DNA of 6,214 bases from Streptosporangiaceae bacterium. GTDB lineage: Bacteria; Actinomycetota; Actinomycetes; Streptosporangiales; Streptosporangiaceae. Both the position numbers and the translations under genes were made by a program. This document shows, one piece after another, positions 1-5,958 of the stretch (positions are counted from its first letter, which is position 1; the number at the start of each line of letters is the position of its first letter). The stretch is from positions 1 through 6,214 of the forward strand of contig JASIBJ010000359.1 of assembly GCA_030045215.1 (NCBI GenBank). The letters are read 5' to 3'. Under the pieces are notes generated by a model. The model was not told the origin of the DNA. It searched no databases and was given only the letters and a program-made list of their open reading frames with translations.

Positions 1-135
1 GCGATCATCAGGGGCGCCGCGGCGCCGAGTTGGCTGCATGACATCGGGCTCCCGGCCCGGCTGGTCCGCGAGGACGGAACGGTGGAAACGACGGCCGGCT
101 GGCCGCGCGACTATGGGCCGGGAGACGCAGCGTGA
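1..135 (+). CDS. apbE: C-terminal end of probable FAD:protein FMN transferase (ApbE family), 5' truncated by window edge
   Basis: Frame 1 is open from the window edge to a TGA at 133-135, giving the last 44 residues of a protein. The tail contains APSWLHDIGLPARLV followed by a short EDGTVETTAGWP segment. This resembles the C-termini I recall for actinobacterial ApbE proteins, where a WL..LGLPARLV..DG.V...GWP pattern closes the domain. ApbE enzymes use FAD to attach FMN covalently to Ser/Thr of extracytoplasmic flavoproteins such as NqrC, RnfG and FMN-binding-domain proteins. The stop overlaps the GTG start of the next gene (GTGA, 132-135), so the two are probably translationally coupled. The downstream heme and Fe-S redox genes fit an ApbE partner. 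The catalytic region lies outside the window, so the identity rests on a short tail plus context and is moderate only. Confidence 0.6.
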   Translation, partial: AIIRGAAAPSWLHDIGLPARLVREDGTVETTAGWPRDYGPGDAA

Positions 136-872
136 GCACGATCCCAGCCAGCCACGTGGCGGCGATCGTGGTGACCTCCTCGACGCCGCTGTGGTACGCG
201 ACGAGGGCCACCGGGCTGGTGGCACTGGTGCTGCTGACGTTCAGCATGGCCCTCGGGCTGCTGTCCTCGGTCCGCTTTGCCCGGCCGACATGGCCCAGGT
301 TCGTGACGCTCGGCCTGCACAGGAACGTGTCGCTGCTGGCGCTTGCCTTCACCGTCGCCCACATCCTCACCTCGGTGCTCGACGGATTCGTCAACATCCC
401 GATCCAGGACGCCGTCGTCCCGTTCATCTCGTCCTACCGGCCGTTGTGGACCGGCCTCGGTGCGATCGCGTTCGACCTCATGCTCGCTCTGATCGTCACC
501 AGCCTGCTCCGGACGAGAATGACCTACCGCGGCTGGCAGGTCGTGCACTGGACCGCGTACCTGTGCTGGCCGATTGCAGTCGTGCACGGCCTCGGCACCG
601 GCACCGATACCCCCGTACGCTGGGTGCTCGTGCTGACCGGTGCGTGCGTGGCAGTCATTGCCGGCCTCACGCTCTGGCGGTTGATTCGAGGCTGGTCCGC
701 CCGGCCGGTCGCGGCCACGGTCGGCGCGGTCGCCGTGGTGGCGACAATTGTCTTGGGCGCTGCGTGGCTGCGAGCCGGACCGCTTGCTCCTGGCTGGGCT
801 CGCAGATCGGGATCGCCGCCGACCGTGCAAACTCATGCGGGCGTGGCTAAGACGCGAGGGGTTGGCCGATGA
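132..872 (+). CDS. Ferric-reductase-like transmembrane di-heme cytochrome b protein
   Basis: This 246-residue membrane protein has about six hydrophobic helices (roughly residues 24-45, 60-83, 104-126, 136-155, 162-185 and 193-213). Four histidines fall in two helices: H63 and H77 in helix 2, H139 and H152 in helix 4. Spacings of 14 and 13 are the pattern expected for two b-hemes stacked across a membrane in ferric reductase/NOX-type domains. Basic residues concentrate in loops 1-2, 3-4 and 5-6, predicting outside N- and C-termini, an inner heme at H63/H139 and an outer heme at H77/H152. It lacks the FAD and NAD(P)H domains of complete ferric reductases, so it must take electrons from a separate protein. 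The next two genes are good candidates. The GTG start at 132 has GGGAG at 120-124, 7 bases upstream. It overlaps both neighbours by 4 bases. The heme-binding inference is strong; the final electron acceptor is unknown. Confidence 0.88.
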   Translation: MSTIPASHVAAIVVTSSTPLWYATRATGLVALVLLTFSMALGLLSSVRFARPTWPRFVTLGLHRNVSLLALAFTVAHILTSVLDGFVNIPIQDAVVPFISSYRPLWTGLGAIAFDLMLALIVTSLLRTRMTYRGWQVVHWTAYLCWPIAVVHGLGTGTDTPVRWVLVLTGACVAVIAGLTLWRLIRGWSARPVAATVGAVAVVATIVLGAAWLRAGPLAPGWARRSGSPPTVQTHAGVAKTRGVGR

Positions 873-2221
873 GCGCGCCCGACACGGCGGCCGCCGCGGC
901 GGGGCGACCGCCCTCGCGCCTGGAACTGCGCCTGATCCCGGCCGGCGGCCCGCTGGACCTCGCCGCTCACCTGGACCGCTACGGCCCGGTGCAGTTCGGC
1001 GCAGCCGACCGCCTTATCGCCGAGGTCGAGAGGTCGGGCCTGACCGGCCGCGGCGGCGGTGCGTTCCCGGCCGGGCGCAAGCTTCGCGCGGTCGCACGGG
1101 CGGCTCGGCGCGGCCCCAGGAGCGGCGCAGTCGTGGTCGCGAACGGATCAGAGTCGGAGCCGGCCAGCAGCAAGGACACTGTGCTGCTGCGCAGCGCGCC
1201 GCACCTGGTGCTCGACGGGATTGCACTGGCCGCGGCGGCAGTCGGTGCCACGCGCGCTTACCTGTGCCTCGGCGAGCGGGCACAGGCGGGCCAGGGTGCT
1301 CTGCGTGAGGCGATCGCACAGCATGAGCGGGCGGGCTTGAGCCACGTGCCGGTCGAGTTGGCCGCAACGGCGACCGGATACCTGTCCGGCCAGGAGACGG
1401 CGCTGATCTCGACGCTCAACGGCGGCCCGCCGTTGCCCACGCTGGTGCCGCCGCTCCCCGCCGAGCGCGGGGCTCACCGGCGCCCGACGCTCGTGATGAA
1501 CGTCGAGACGCTGGCGCATATCGCGTTGATCGGCCGGTACGGGGCCCGCTGGTTCCGCGAGGTCGGCAGCGAGGCCTCGGCCGGGTCCGCGCTGGTCACC
1601 ATCAGCGGCGCCGTGAGCCGGCCCGGCGTCTACGAGATCCCGCTCGGAACCATGCTCGGCGACATGCTGCAGCGGGCGGGCCTGCCCGAACGGCCGCAGG
1701 CTGTGCTGGCCGGCGGGTACTTCGGCGCCTGGCTGCCGTTGCCGGACGCGCTGGGCCTGGGCCTCAGCGAGGAAGGCTTGCGCCCCGCCGGTGCCGCGCT
1801 CGGGCCTGGCGTACTGGCGGTGCTGCCCGAGTCCCGCTGCGGGCTAGCCGAGACGGCCAGGATCACCGCGTATCTGGCGAGCCAGACCGCAAGGCAGTGC
1901 GGACCGTGCACTAACGGCATGCCCGCGATGGCGGAGGCCATGAACTGGATAGCGTTCGGCCAGCCCGATGCTGACCTGCTCGGCTGGGCGCACGAGCTAA
2001 CCCGGCTCGTGACCGGCCGAGGCGCGTGCCACCTTCCCGACGGCGCCGCCGCCCTGGTCGCCAGCGCGCTTGCCGTATTCGATGCCGACGTGCGCGCGCA
2101 TGCTGCAGTCGGCCCATGTGCGCGTGCCGCCGCGCCGCCGCTGCTGCCGATACCGCGGCCGGGGCAGAACTCACGCGCACGGCTGCCGCGGGGTCGCCAG
2201 ATGTCGCGGAGGGTCGGATGA
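869..2221 (+). CDS. NuoF/RnfC-like FMN and iron-sulfur oxidoreductase with SLBB domain
   Basis: This 450-residue soluble protein resembles the 51-kDa subunit of complex I (NuoF/Nqo1) with RnfC-like traits. The glycine-rich FMN loop GLTGRGGGAFPAGRK is at 57-71. NGSESEP with a following KD at 92-103 corresponds to NuoF NADEGEP...KD but reads more like RnfC NGAECEP. YLSGQETALISTLNG (171-185) and PTLVMNVET (206-214) match further flavin/NADH-domain motifs. An SLBB domain follows at about 240-290 (ISGAVSRPGVYEIP). The Fe-S region has C344-G-P-C347 and C387 in GACHLPDG, matching three of the four N3 ligands; the first Cys of CxxCxxC is Ala. C324 in SRCGLAE may substitute. The likely role is passing electrons between NAD(P)H or ferredoxin and the di-heme membrane protein encoded just upstream. 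The ATG has GAGGGG at 856-861, 7 bases upstream, and overlaps the previous stop as ATGA. The last ~30 residues are Pro/Arg-rich and probably disordered. The true electron donor cannot be told from sequence. Confidence 0.87.
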   Translation: MSAPDTAAAAAGRPPSRLELRLIPAGGPLDLAAHLDRYGPVQFGAADRLIAEVERSGLTGRGGGAFPAGRKLRAVARAARRGPRSGAVVVANGSESEPASSKDTVLLRSAPHLVLDGIALAAAAVGATRAYLCLGERAQAGQGALREAIAQHERAGLSHVPVELAATATGYLSGQETALISTLNGGPPLPTLVPPLPAERGAHRRPTLVMNVETLAHIALIGRYGARWFREVGSEASAGSALVTISGAVSRPGVYEIPLGTMLGDMLQRAGLPERPQAVLAGGYFGAWLPLPDALGLGLSEEGLRPAGAALGPGVLAVLPESRCGLAETARITAYLASQTARQCGPCTNGMPAMAEAMNWIAFGQPDADLLGWAHELTRLVTGRGACHLPDGAAALVASALAVFDADVRAHAAVGPCARAAAPPLLPIPRPGQNSRARLPRGRQMSRRVG

Positions 2222-2466
2222 GCGCCAGGCCATCCGACGGCCGGGCCGCGGCGCGGCCGGGCGATGCGCCGGGGCTGCGCGTCAACCCGATCGCGTGCGA
2301 GGCCCACGGCGTCTGCATCGAGTTGCTGCCGGAGCTGATCAGGGCCGATCCCTGGGGCTACCCGATCATCTCGCGCCGCCCCGTGCCTGCCCAGTTGCTG
2401 CCGCTGGCCCGGCGCGCCGTGGCGTCCTGCCCCACGCTCGCGCTGTTGCTAGGCGGGCAGAAGTAG
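2218..2466 (+). CDS. Small ferredoxin, three-cysteine [3Fe-4S] type
   Basis: This 82-residue protein has a low-complexity 18-residue N-terminus followed by a compact ferredoxin fold. IACEAHGVC supplies C27 and C33, ELLPEL and WGYPII follow, and SCP near the end supplies C71. C-x5-C with a single late CP is the arrangement of the [3Fe-4S] ferredoxins common in actinomycetes, where they often serve P450s or other reductases. Here no P450 is near. It overlaps the NuoF/RnfC-like gene as ATGA (2218-2221), so the likely partner is that protein, with the ferredoxin as donor, acceptor or electron-entry subunit. The frame is open further upstream, to an ATG at 2026, but that extension lies inside the NuoF-like gene and would add arginine-rich sequence. 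The 2218 ATG has GGAGGG at 2208-2213, so I prefer it. It is the last gene before the hairpin at 2521-2557. Confidence 0.88.
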   Translation: MSARPSDGRAAARPGDAPGLRVNPIACEAHGVCIELLPELIRADPWGYPIISRRPVPAQLLPLARRAVASCPTLALLLGGQK

Positions 2467-2576: not shown

Positions 2577-3272
2577 CTAGCTGATGAAGACCTTCGGGTT
2601 GTGCTTCACGCTCGTGTCCAGCACAGGACCAAACGTGGCCGTGAACGAGGCGTCGGTGCCCGCGGCCGAGCACAGACTCGTAGACGCCTTGGTGTCTAGC
2701 GCGAAGATCTGGTGGGAGAACGCCACGGTGTTGTGCGTGTTCGAGGAATGCCCCGTCGCGGAAGCCGCGGTGAAAATACACGACTGCGTGGGGAACCCGC
2801 TCACCACGACGGTGGCGTCGAAGCCGGTCGGCTTGCTCTTGCTCGACCCGGCGATGACGATTGGGTCGCCCTTGGCATCGCTGACAGTGCCGGCGTAAGG
2901 CAGATGGATCGCCTTAATGCTCACGGTCGCGGAGTGGCCAGCGACCGTGATCGTGGGGCAGCCGCTGATCGTCTCGCTGGTGATCGAGAGCGTGGCCTTG
3001 CCCTTGGCAGAGGGGTTCTTGACGACCGTTGCCGCGAAGCTGGCCGACTTGCAGGCGGCCGTGGCGCTGCCGATGCTCAGCACGGCCTTCGTGCCCTTCT
3101 CCAGACTGGCCTTGAGCACCGCTCCGTGCTTGACTGCCGTTCCGCCGACCTTTCCGATGGTGAGAACCGCCTTAGGGGCACTGTGCACGCTCGCAGCGAC
3201 CGCGGCGCCAGCTGGCACGGACAGCACCATCGCGGCGCCGGCCGCCAAGGCCAGATAGCGGTACTTACGCAT
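2577..3272 (-). CDS. Secreted protein of unknown family with four cysteines
   Basis: This 231-residue protein has a clear Sec-type signal peptide: MRKYRY, then a hydrophobic stretch (7-19) and a small-residue cleavage region around AAVAA (residues 23-27). The mature part is rich in Ser, Thr, Lys, Ala and Val with alternating hydrophobic residues, suggesting beta-sandwich or Ig-like folding. It has exactly four cysteines (C74, C105, C165, C201), which could make two disulfides outside the cell. There is no lipobox, LPxTG sorting motif, transmembrane anchor or catalytic motif that I recognise, so it is probably released. I recall similar short-signal, VLTIG-type hypothetical proteins in actinomycetes but cannot name a function. 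GGAAAGGA lies 8 bases before the ATG. Base composition is somewhat less GC-extreme than its neighbours, partly because of its Lys/Ser/Thr content. It is convergent with the redox operon, and no sequence feature links it to that operon's function. Confidence 0.85.
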   Translation of the reverse strand: MRKYRYLALAAGAAMVLSVPAGAAVAASVHSAPKAVLTIGKVGGTAVKHGAVLKASLEKGTKAVLSIGSATAACKSASFAATVVKNPSAKGKATLSITSETISGCPTITVAGHSATVSIKAIHLPYAGTVSDAKGDPIVIAGSSKSKPTGFDATVVVSGFPTQSCIFTAASATGHSSNTHNTVAFSHQIFALDTKASTSLCSAAGTDASFTATFGPVLDTSVKHNPKVFIS

Positions 3273-3455: not shown

Positions 3456-4592
3456 ATGGGCCCACTGAACGGCGTGCGCGTCATCGAGATCGCGAGCCTG
3501 GCGCCGGCGCCGTTCGGCTGCATGATCCTGGCCGACCTCGGCGCGGACGTGCTCAGGGTGGACCGGGCCGAGCGCTGCGGGCCGCAGGCGAGGGTGCCGA
3601 CCGACCCGCTCAGCCGCGGCCGCCGCTCGATCGGCCTCAACCTTAAGGAGCGGGACGCCGTCGAAATCCTGCTCCGGCTCGTCGAAGAGGCCGACGTGCT
3701 GGTCGAAGGCTTCCGCCCGGGCGTCGCCGAACGGCTCGGATTCGGGCCCGAGGTTTGCGCGGCGCGCAATCCGAGGCTGATCTTCGCGCGGATGACCGGC
3801 TGGGGGCAGGACGGCCCGCTGGCACCGACGGCAGGCCACGACATCGACTACATCGCGATCTCCGGCGCGCTCGGGCCGATCGGCCGGGCCGGCGAGCGGC
3901 CGGTGCCGCCGCTGAACCTGATCGGAGACTTTGGCGGCGGCGGCATGCTGCTGGCCATGGGAATCCTGGCGGCGCTGGTCGAACGGGCGACTTCGGGCAG
4001 CGGGCAGGTGGTCGATGCCGCCATGGTGGATGGCTCCGCGCTCCTCACCTCGTTCCTTTATGGCTTGCTCGCCACCGGAGCCTGGCAGGACCGGCGCGGC
4101 AGCAACCTGCTCGACGGCGGCGCGCCCTTCTACGACACCTACGTCTGCGCCGACGGAGGCTACGTCGCGGTCGGGGCGCTGGAGCCGCAGTTCTATGCCG
4201 CGCTGCTGGCCGGGCTCGGTCTCGCCGACGCCGGCCTGCCTGCGCAGCACGACCGGGCCGGCTGGCCGGTGCTGCGCGAGAGGTTCGCCGCCGCGTTCGC
4301 CTCCCGCACCAGGGACGCGTGGGCGCAGGTATTCGCCGGAACCGACGCGTGCGTCTTCCCCGTGCTGAGCCTGACCGAGGCGCCGGTCCACCCGCACGCC
4401 GCCGCCCGCAGCTCTTTCATCGAGGTCGGCGGCATCGTGCAGCCGGCCCCGGCTCCTCGATTCAGCCGATCGGCGGCCCGTCACCCGGCGGCACCACCGA
4501 GGCCGGGTGACCACACCGCCGGCGAACTGGCAAAGCTCGGACTGAGCGAGCGCGAGGTCGCCGATCTGCGGGCCAGGGGCGTGATTGGCTGA
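3456..4592 (+). CDS. mcr: Alpha-methylacyl-CoA racemase (family III CoA-transferase fold)
   Basis: This 378-residue cytosolic enzyme probably interconverts (2R)- and (2S)-2-methylacyl-CoA thioesters, the step that lets branched-chain fatty acids or sterol side chains enter beta-oxidation. It is very similar along its length to my memory of Mycobacterium tuberculosis MCR (360 residues). Shared blocks include ADLGADVLRVDR, EGFRPGVAERLGFGPE (84-99), ARMTGWGQDGP (111-121), RPVPPLNLIGDFGGG (148-162), GQVVDAAMVDGS and LDGGAPFYDTY. The known MCR catalytic and binding positions R91, H126, D156 and E241 correspond to R93, H128, D158 and E243, a constant offset of two, so the active site looks intact. 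Other family III members transfer CoA between acids using an Asp nucleophile; the His/Asp pair and GAxEPQFY motif favour racemase. The last 8 bases overlap the MATE gene, indicating one transcript. The substrate is not determined by sequence. Confidence 0.92.
   Translation: MGPLNGVRVIEIASLAPAPFGCMILADLGADVLRVDRAERCGPQARVPTDPLSRGRRSIGLNLKERDAVEILLRLVEEADVLVEGFRPGVAERLGFGPEVCAARNPRLIFARMTGWGQDGPLAPTAGHDIDYIAISGALGPIGRAGERPVPPLNLIGDFGGGGMLLAMGILAALVERATSGSGQVVDAAMVDGSALLTSFLYGLLATGAWQDRRGSNLLDGGAPFYDTYVCADGGYVAVGALEPQFYAALLAGLGLADAGLPAQHDRAGWPVLRERFAAAFASRTRDAWAQVFAGTDACVFPVLSLTEAPVHPHAAARSSFIEVGGIVQPAPAPRFSRSAARHPAAPPRPGDHTAGELAKLGLSEREVADLRARGVIG
4575..4579 (+). promoter_or_regulatory. Ribosome binding site supporting the TTG start of the MATE gene
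   Basis: AGGGG within the end of the racemase gene lies 5 bases before TTG at 4585. The frame has a TGA immediately upstream (4582-4584), and no ATG, GTG or TTG follows before the first membrane helix. TTG 4585 is therefore the only conventional start available. Confidence 0.6.
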
Positions 4593-5958
4593 CAGCCGCC
4601 ACGCCGGGCGCCTAGTCGCCAGCCGTCTGCGTGAAGCTGTCGGAGGGCTGCGCGGGCCGCAGAACGGCGAGATCCTGCGGCTGGCCCTGCCGGCCTTCGG
4701 CGCGCTCGTCGCGGAGCCACTGTTCCTGCTGGCCGATTCCGCGATCGTCGGCCGGCTCGGCACGATCCCGCTCGGCGGCCTGGGCGTGGCCAGCCAGGTG
4801 CTGACCACGCTCGTCAATATCTCGATCTTCCTGGCCTACGGGACGACCGCCGCCGTAGCGCGGCAACTCGGTGCGGGTCACCGTGACGCAGCGATCCGGC
4901 TCGGGATCGACGGCTTGTGGCTAGCCGCGGCCATCGGGGTCGTCGTGCTGGCAGCCGGCTGGCCGCTGGCGCCGCCGCTGGTCCGCGCGTTCGGCGGCAC
5001 GGCGGACGTCAGTCACGAGGCGATCATCTACCTGCGGATCAGCCTGCTCGGCGCGCCCGCCATGCTGATCGTGCTGGCCGGCACCGGCATCCTGCGCGGG
5101 CTCCAGGACACCCGGACGCCCTTGCTCGTCGCGGTGGCGGCCAACGCGGCCAACGTGGTGCTGAACGCGACGTTCGTGCTCGGCCTCCACTGGGGCATCG
5201 CCGGCTCGGCGTGGGGCACGGTGATAGCCCAGGCCGGAACCTGCATCGCCTACCTGCTGGTGGTGTCCCGCGGCGCCAAGCGGGCAGGCGTGAGCCGCCG
5301 AGCCGACCTCGCCGGCGTGCGCTCCGCCGCCTTCGCAGGCGCGTCGCTGGTGCTGCGCACGCTCGCATTGCAGGCGGTCCCGGTCGTGATGACCGCGATC
5401 GCGGCCCGGCAGGGCGATGCGGCCCTGGCCGCGAACCAGGTCGCGATGCGGGTGTGGAACCTGTTCGTGCTCGCGCTCGACGCGATCGCGATCGCCGGCC
5501 AGGCCATCACCGGTCGCTACCTCGGTGCCGGCGACGTCGCCGCGGCCAGGGCCGCAACCCGTCGGATGATTGTGTGGGGCGCCGTCTACGGGGTCATCTT
5601 CTCGGCCGTGCTCCTGGCGATCCGCCCGGCCCTCCCGCCGCTGTTCGGCCTGGCGCCGGACGTGCGCCGGCTGCTGCTTGCCGTCGTGCTCGTCGTGATC
5701 GTGCAGCAGCCGGCGGCAGGGGTGGTGTTCGTGCTCGACGGAGTTCTCATTGGCGCGGGCGACCAGGACTACCTCGCGGTCGCCGGGCTAGTGATACTGG
5801 CGGTCTTCTGGGCTGCGGCCTGGGCCGTGGTGACGACCGGCGCGGGCCTGGTCGCGCTCTGGCTCGCGTACTGCGCGTGGATGGCGGCAAGGTTCGCGAC
5901 GCTTACGCTGCGCGTGCGGGGAACGAACTGGCTCGTCACTGGGGCGGTCCGCCGCTGA
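4585..5958 (+). CDS. MATE family multidrug/metabolite efflux transporter (DinF-like)
   Basis: This 457-residue protein is rich in hydrophobic helices, with a probable 12-helix topology in two related halves, the usual MATE size. The first helix begins near residue 29 (EILRLALPAFGALVAEP), followed by LADSAIVGRLG and FLAYGTTAAVARQLGAG, typical of the DinF branch. LRGLQDTRTP (170-179), with NAANVVLN and GIAGSAWGTVIAQ following, matches a family signature. In the second half, AANQVAMRVWNL (from A282) and GQAITGRYLGAGD repeat the pattern. Such proteins export organic cations, drugs or metabolites in exchange for H+ or Na+. The start is TTG, overlapping the racemase stop by 8 bases, so expression is probably coupled. 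The natural substrate is unknown; the link to racemase suggests, but does not show, export of a lipid-related or secondary metabolite. No truncation is seen. Confidence 0.92.
   Translation: MADSRHAGRLVASRLREAVGGLRGPQNGEILRLALPAFGALVAEPLFLLADSAIVGRLGTIPLGGLGVASQVLTTLVNISIFLAYGTTAAVARQLGAGHRDAAIRLGIDGLWLAAAIGVVVLAAGWPLAPPLVRAFGGTADVSHEAIIYLRISLLGAPAMLIVLAGTGILRGLQDTRTPLLVAVAANAANVVLNATFVLGLHWGIAGSAWGTVIAQAGTCIAYLLVVSRGAKRAGVSRRADLAGVRSAAFAGASLVLRTLALQAVPVVMTAIAARQGDAALAANQVAMRVWNLFVLALDAIAIAGQAITGRYLGAGDVAAARAATRRMIVWGAVYGVIFSAVLLAIRPALPPLFGLAPDVRRLLLAVVLVVIVQQPAAGVVFVLDGVLIGAGDQDYLAVAGLVILAVFWAAAWAVVTTGAGLVALWLAYCAWMAARFATLTLRVRGTNWLVTGAVRR

Follow-up and report, generated by a model that had tools for sequence, protein, structure and literature searches.

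The window analyzed here is a 6,214-nucleotide stretch of Streptosporangiaceae DNA (contig JASIBJ010000359.1), and its first 2,466 nucleotides carry a gene cluster made of the end of apbE and the genes for an MsrQ-like membrane protein, a NuoF-like protein, and a small ferredoxin. We think it likely that this cluster is an actinobacterial electron-export module with a flavin-tagged small carrier. In the proposed mechanism, cytosolic electrons would enter via the NuoF-like flavin mononucleotide (FMN) protein and the three-cysteine ferredoxin. They would then reach the inner and next the outer haem of the MsrQ-like protein, and would exit on FMN that ApbE has joined covalently to the C-terminal serine of a small protein. 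This carrier would consist of a membrane anchor, a floppy tail, and a terminal motif, with no flavin-binding fold, and the string with its flavin tag might swing back and forth from the cytochrome to cell-wall acceptors. On balance we also favor a wider claim, namely, that this is a natural flavin tag without a flavin-binding fold, in which ApbE, acting in the cytosol, forms an ester between FMN and the terminal serine and the exported string serves as a swinging-arm carrier, and that it is widespread in Actinobacteria.

Gene layout and conservation of the cluster

Direct reading of the sequence confirmed the initial annotation in that positions 1 to 2466 hold four plus-strand genes coupled by three 4-base overlaps (GTGA at 132-135, ATGA at 869-872, and ATGA at 2218-2221). 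The genes are as follows.

1..135, + strand, frame 1: C-terminal 44 residues of ApbE (flavin adenine dinucleotide [FAD]:protein FMN transferase), with 86% identity to the C terminus of the ApbE at locus L001
132..872, + strand: MsrQ-like di-haem b membrane protein with no flavin or NAD domain (Ferric_reduct PF01794, 36.4 bits)
869..2221, + strand: NuoF-like FMN and iron-sulfur (Fe-S) protein (PF01512, PF10531, and PF10589, which are Complex1_51K, SLBB, and NADH_4Fe-4S)
2218..2466, + strand: small ferredoxin with three cysteines, CxxHxxC...C (Fer4_15, 34.8 bits)

The Pfam domains of the last two products agree with the NuoF-like FMN/Fe-S protein and three-cysteine ferredoxin that had been proposed. 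The ApbE tail encoded by positions 1-135 had zero Pfam matches on its own. However, L001, from a Streptosporangiaceae metagenome-assembled genome whose NuoF-like protein is 89% identical to that of the window, carries the full gene, and its product matches PF02424 at 173.5 bits (cut-off, 25.6). The 86% identity to this protein bears out the earlier assignment of the tail, and the upstream gene, whose identity the initial annotation had wanted checked, is ApbE. The remainder of the apbE gene lies to the left of the window. Judging from the relatives, the gene for the small carrier would also lie left of the window edge in this genome.

Actinobacterial genomes were scanned with a profile made from nine MsrQ-like proteins, in 1,347 genome searches that include repeats. 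For 120 of the MsrQ matches, mostly higher-scoring ones, a larger region was retrieved, and together with L001-L008 these made up 128 loci (L001-L008, L070-L109, and L195-L274). The denominator of 128 represents chosen MsrQ-profile loci, and is neither a random sample of loci nor one of random genomes. L009 was omitted because it has no MsrQ, and L010-L069 and L110-L194, with flanks of just 1.5 kb, were not counted. Genes outside the cluster were called by G+C content at third positions.

We found apbE directly upstream of the MsrQ-like gene in 106 of the 128 loci. NuoF was present as well in 98, and the ferredoxin was also present in 94, all on the same strand. With 94 of the 128 loci sharing it, the four-gene order is not due to chance, and joint conservation of the four genes, another check that the initial annotation had called for, is what we observed. 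Its picture of a di-haem protein in the membrane that receives cytosolic electrons through the NuoF-like protein and ferredoxin is the best reading of the four genes. In a second class of loci (L095-L106, L108, and L109), NuoF comes after MsrQ and apbE is not nearby, and four genomes of this class (G488, G586, G515, and G514) have no ApbE match anywhere in the genome.

No conserved acceptor gene was seen beside the cluster among 96 loci examined. Two families were frequent extra neighbors, one in 34 and the other in 22 of the 96 loci; Pfam identifies their L004 members as a histidine kinase and a response regulator.

The small protein upstream of apbE and its C-terminal motif

Each of L001-L008 has a small open reading frame (ORF) whose end meets apbE or lies shortly ahead of it. 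The encoded proteins have a basic N terminus, one hydrophobic helix, and a low-complexity tail. Their endings include VTSGAS, GSGAS, SSGS, and TNGS, with THSS in L008. A small ORF with a transmembrane helix and a disordered region immediately upstream of apbE could be picked automatically, with the five C-terminal residues ignored, in 96 of the 106 apbE-bearing loci. The disordered tail has a median length of 66 residues and ranges from some 30 to 180.

The last residue is serine in 90 of these 96 small proteins, compared with 20.1 expected from their own tails, and 78 of 96 end in [ST].[GA]S, compared with 2.2 expected. In 20,000 simulations from the same tails, there were never more than 35 terminal serines or 10 motifs. 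Taking one protein per 60% cluster left the result in place (terminal serine, 70/76; [ST].[GA]S, 62/76). Among background genes of the same loci, terminal serine was found in 101 of 719 and the motif in 3 of 719. The idea that a low-complexity tail alone explains the motif was rejected, since background genes with such tails had terminal serine in 14 of 120 cases and the motif in 2 of 120.

The signal extends beyond the last residues. Position -4 is Ser or Thr in 89 of the 96 proteins. Position -7 is Asp in 16 (4.5 expected) and His in 25 (1.2 expected), and the commonest form of the terminal motif is [DHQ]xx[ST]x[GA]S. According to a review (PMC12052999), ApbE recognizes the motif Dxx[ST]GA[ST] and places FMN on the last Ser or Thr. 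The same review reports only minor effects of changing the motif Asp to Ala, acceptance of Ser, albeit less well than Thr, and best performance of a 7-residue flavin tag at a protein terminus. As read from the sequences, the C-terminal motif of the small proteins is in register with Dxx[ST]GA[ST]. We suggest that the small terminal-motif protein is likely to be the flavinylated outer carrier.

The small protein of L007 has seven close database relatives whose linkers vary, and all seven end in AHTGSGAS. They are named "hypothetical protein" or not at all, and no Pfam family is assigned to them. Five small proteins that we tested gave zero Pfam matches above cut-off. In genome G893, the single ApbE match lies away from the MsrQ-NuoF-ferredoxin genes, and an ORF ending in STTGGS stands directly before it.

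ApbE, its substrates, and the side of the membrane

The initial annotation had predicted an exported FMN-binding-domain protein as the flavin carrier, and this part of it was not supported. A genuine FMN_bind motif was present at only 1 of the 128 loci, L231 (VSGATYTS, found by regular expression, with other matches judged by eye to be out of frame), where PF04205 matched at the same place. An FMN_bind-domain carrier beside the cluster was therefore rejected on this count, and the small tethered motif protein is found instead.

Many genomes with the module also lack other known ApbE substrate families. The genome tests covered 80 of 95 genomes with the MsrQ module, the 15 omitted being judged close relatives or near-duplicates. 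There was no PF04205 (FMN_bind) match in 39 of the 80, and 41 had one. Exactly one ApbE match was found in 31 of the 39 FMN_bind-free genomes and at least two in all 41 FMN_bind genomes (Fisher p 4e-15), although these are match pieces and not genes, and many of the genomes are drafts, which is a caveat to the comparison. Six FMN_bind-free single-ApbE genomes look essentially closed (G612, G686, G933, G958, G1004, and G1179), since in each the contig that carries the cluster has nearly the length of the whole genome. DUF2271 and RnfD/NqrB were rejected as hidden ApbE substrates, being over cut-off in 1/39 and 0/39 FMN_bind-free genomes, respectively; the search covered DUF2271 and NQR2/RnfD, and DUF3570, Flavodoxin_4, and FMN_red were not searched. 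Among 11 non-cluster ApbE matches in 8 genomes, the classic SGATYTS lies beside 5 loci.

These genome data bear on the model of the initial annotation, in which the cluster would be an ordinary MsrQ-like flavinylation cluster, of the type surveyed in 2021, with its FMN_bind protein encoded elsewhere. It is true that 41 of the 80 genomes encode FMN_bind and that L231 has one beside the cluster. However, draft gaps aside, this model is largely excluded for the 39 FMN_bind-free genomes. FMN_bind genomes always hold additional ApbE matches, and among the 11 non-cluster ApbE loci there are 5 in which a different ApbE type has the FMN_bind motif next to it. We consider the model very improbable.

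By their sequences, the cluster ApbEs are a distinct subfamily. The Asp of the TADALST segment, which we take to be the ApbE metal ligand, is Asn in 98 of 105 cluster ApbEs. At the same position, Asp was read by eye in 7 distinct non-cluster actinobacterial ApbE loci with the segment fully readable. In the HHxxDP segment, which holds the conserved catalytic His, the second His is present in 105/105 cluster ApbEs and the first in 100/105. The role of the catalytic His of ApbE flavin transferases is given in PMC12052999.

Several observations weigh against the reading of the small protein as a flavinylated carrier. Its flavinylation is something that we infer. Just 35 of the 96 small proteins end in [ST]G[GA]S, the stricter version of the motif, and at position -2 Gly (63) outnumbers the canonical Ala (16). 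Among the 96 picks, six lack a terminal Ser, and another 12 have one but not the motif. Five of these 18 exceptions look mis-picked (L093, L225, L247, L260, and L263, the last with an earlier pick that ends in KSKGS); the motif counts retain these five doubtful picks, and the topology statistics (n = 91) exclude them. There is also a real variant in L076, L077, L079, and L080, in which a C...PSG...C two-cysteine tail, possibly a disulfide loop version of the carrier, replaces [ST]x[GA]S. At L008 and L210-L212, the last two residues of the small protein are SS. No small protein was picked at ten of the apbE loci. In L205, L241, and L251 the motif is present and the helix is under the cut-off, and in L107 the motif is also visible. 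L204 and L274 are at contig ends, and L231 has FMN_bind instead. At L087, L243, and L248, nothing of the kind was seen.

Further observations of this kind come from outside the cluster. At L275 and L276 (G370 and G047), a ferredoxin-like frame comes after apbE; the pair is distant from MsrQ-NuoF and has no clear small peptide. SGATYTS was not shown at the other six of the 11 non-cluster ApbE loci. At L286, a non-cluster ApbE locus, a nearby 66-residue frame with a hydrophobic helix ends in PSDGS and is perhaps the peptide partner of another ApbE type. Finally, an overlap with the following start codon is possible for 65 of the 90 terminal Ser codons. The idea that such overlap alone produces the terminal Ser was rejected, because background genes ending in NNA or NNG followed by TGA had Ser in 21/178 and the motif in 0/178.

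An alternative is a small protein that is not flavinylated, with ApbE acting on another protein or on free FAD and the motif serving, say, glycosylation or wall attachment. The looser-than-canonical motif, the Asn that replaces Asp in most cluster ApbEs, and the terminal variants (L008, L076-L080, and L210-L212) would all fit such a protein. However, the small gene adjoins apbE, and the pair occurs together in G893 too. The motif register is exact, position -7 included, and 39 of 80 genomes are without FMN_bind. We think it unlikely that the small protein escapes flavinylation.

The charge is higher on the N-side than on the C-side of the small-protein helix in 88 of 91 proteins, and the tail is therefore probably outside the membrane. 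RRx-hydrophobic pairs near the helix, found in 39 of 91 proteins, are compatible with export by twin-arginine translocation (Tat) and do not show Tat. The ApbE profile match starts at a median of 39 nt past the stop of the small gene. Counting 60 nt into that gene, the in-frame ApbE extension is less than 50 codons in 83/91 and open for at least 50 codons in 8/91, and the upstream extensions have a maximum 15-residue hydropathy of 1.6. Because there is little space for a signal peptide between the small gene and the ApbE match, the cluster ApbEs seem to lack one and to be cytosolic. For the same reason, flavinylation probably takes place in the cytosol, ahead of tail export. If ApbE is cytosolic and the tail lies outside, a flavin-bearing peptide would have to be exported, which is one more difficulty for the proposal. 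We infer this topology, as well as the direction of electron flow, the donor, and the acceptor.

The tail might instead stay in the cytosol, where an FMN arm would link the NuoF-like protein or ferredoxin to the inner haem, and the MsrQ-like protein would reduce an outside acceptor directly. The apparently cytosolic ApbE, with its short gap and short extensions, fits this arrangement. However, the helix charge places the tail outside, and the tails resemble wall-spanning linkers. An inner arm also seems unneeded, since MsrQ-NuoF-ferredoxin exists without any ApbE match in the four genomes G488, G586, G515, and G514. A cytosolic tail is doubtful in our judgment.

The proposed electron path and related systems

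The exported flavin carrier would receive its electrons from the MsrQ-like protein. His63, His77, His139, and His152 are invariant in 9/9 aligned MsrQ-like proteins and are the predicted haem ligands. The assignment of H63/H139 to the inner haem in the initial annotation fits the positive-inside rule, with the loops read by eye. We counted six helices in the window protein from hydropathy and reading by eye; the helix bearing His139 and His152 did not reach the hydropathy threshold and was placed by visual inspection. The earlier description of a six-helix di-haem protein without a flavin domain thus stands for the window and agrees with PF01794. Among the nine aligned proteins, the sixth, C-terminal helix is seen in those of the window and L001 only; the remaining seven share a core of roughly five helices.

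An AlphaFold model of the MsrQ-like protein was mediocre (predicted local distance difference test score, 66) and served for fold hints only. The top Foldseek matches were STEAP and NOX, all of them weak (best E, 3.2e-3; all E > 0.001). Like the membrane domains of NOX, STEAP, and ferric reductases, the MsrQ-like protein has two His pairs on two helices. Unlike them, it has no FAD/NADPH domain in the same chain, and the role of that domain seems to have moved to the NuoF-like protein and ferredoxin.

The window NuoF-like protein scored 216.4 bits with NCBIfam nuoF_fam, under the cut-off of 558.65. For the FMN site, we relied on a residue list in T. thermophilus Nqo1 numbering. G64, G66, G67, N92, and N220 are present in 89/89 relatives and T223 in 88/89, and D94 and N219 of the list are not retained. 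In T. thermophilus complex I, F78 and F205 stack on the adenine of NADH. These positions are Ala and Leu in the window, and none of the residues read at them, in 77 and 82 of the 89 relatives, respectively, is Phe. Because these adenine-stacking Phe residues are lost, plain NADH is doubtful as the donor. The donor may be reduced ferredoxin or another nucleotide.

Among the cysteines of cluster N3, C353 is replaced by Ala in 84/89 relatives, and C356, C359, and C400 are each present in 88/89. The window protein has 3 of the 4 canonical cluster cysteines. The ferredoxin domain has three cysteines in 110/112 relatives and CxxHxxC in 76/112, a three-cysteine pattern known from the [3Fe-4S] ferredoxins of actinobacterial P450s. 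In the four loci of the second class whose frame was read (L095, L102, L108, and L109), the NuoF-like protein and ferredoxin are fused in one protein, behind a longer MsrQ-like protein and with apbE not adjoining. This fusion supports the suggestion that the two are direct partners. L009 (Amycolatopsis sp. MtRt-6) has a diverged NuoF-like frame, perhaps a remnant; its fetched stretch has no MsrQ, apbE, or ferredoxin match.

The rest of the window encodes other proteins. At 2577-3272 on the minus strand is a 231-residue protein with a signal-peptide-like start and no match in Pfam or NCBIfam. At 3456-5958 on the plus strand are a family III CoA-transferase (PF02515) and a MATE transporter (PF01554) in overlapping frames, with a TTG start at 4585. 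As far as we saw, this pair has no relation to the electron-transfer module.

In its working, the proposed module resembles Rnf and Nqr, with cytosolic FMN/Fe-S entry, a membrane carrier, and a covalent outer FMN. However, NQR2/RnfD/RnfE (PF03116) is absent (0/39 genomes tested), and the Rnf-like circuit of the initial annotation survives as an analogy only. In the Listeria system, a flavinylated envelope protein likewise carries electrons outward in a Gram-positive bacterium, and its carrier uses folded FMN-binding domains.

Flavin-based extracellular electron transfer in Gram-positive Listeria is mentioned in Meheust et al. 2021 (PMC8238504). This survey also describes MsrQ-like flavinylation clusters, mainly from Actinobacteria, 31 of them with a NuoF-like protein (PF10589). 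Our loci share with these clusters a PF01794 di-haem protein with apbE, and differ in having no FMN_bind, a small disordered carrier, and an ApbE apparently without a signal peptide. Because the survey kept only genes for which a signal peptide or lipid site was predicted, it would under-count clusters of this kind. The cluster type is thus known from the 2021 survey, and the small terminal-motif protein is the new part, as far as the literature was searched. Such a carrier would be missed by surveys that seek folded FMN domains and signal peptides.

The nearest precedent that we saw is in Huang et al. 2024 (PMC11334425), where ApbE-associated FMN_red proteins are described as bearing sites similar to the flavinylation motif on a C-terminal extension that is unstructured. 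There, the extension is on a folded domain, beside its flavin site, and the proteins are mostly from Firmicutes, whereas the small proteins here have no folded domain that we could see, and the motif is the protein end. The artificial flavin tag (Tong et al. 2021, as cited in PMC12052999) is also a short motif that works best at a terminus and receives FMN on its last residue. In contrast to it, the motif here is natural and on a membrane-tethered disordered protein, with Ser for Thr and, in many cases, H, Q, or D at position -7. Searches of the open-licence PMC literature gave no title or opening of an abstract that names a natural tether flavinylated at its C terminus, which is a weak negative.

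If our proposal is correct, the tether with a terminal motif and no domain would be a new type of covalent flavin carrier and a natural counterpart to the engineered labeling tag. It would provide a substrate for actinobacterial ApbEs for which no other is apparent, and would suggest that ApbE can work in the cytosol on an export-bound protein. For the bacteria, it would offer a route for electron export across the thick Gram-positive wall.

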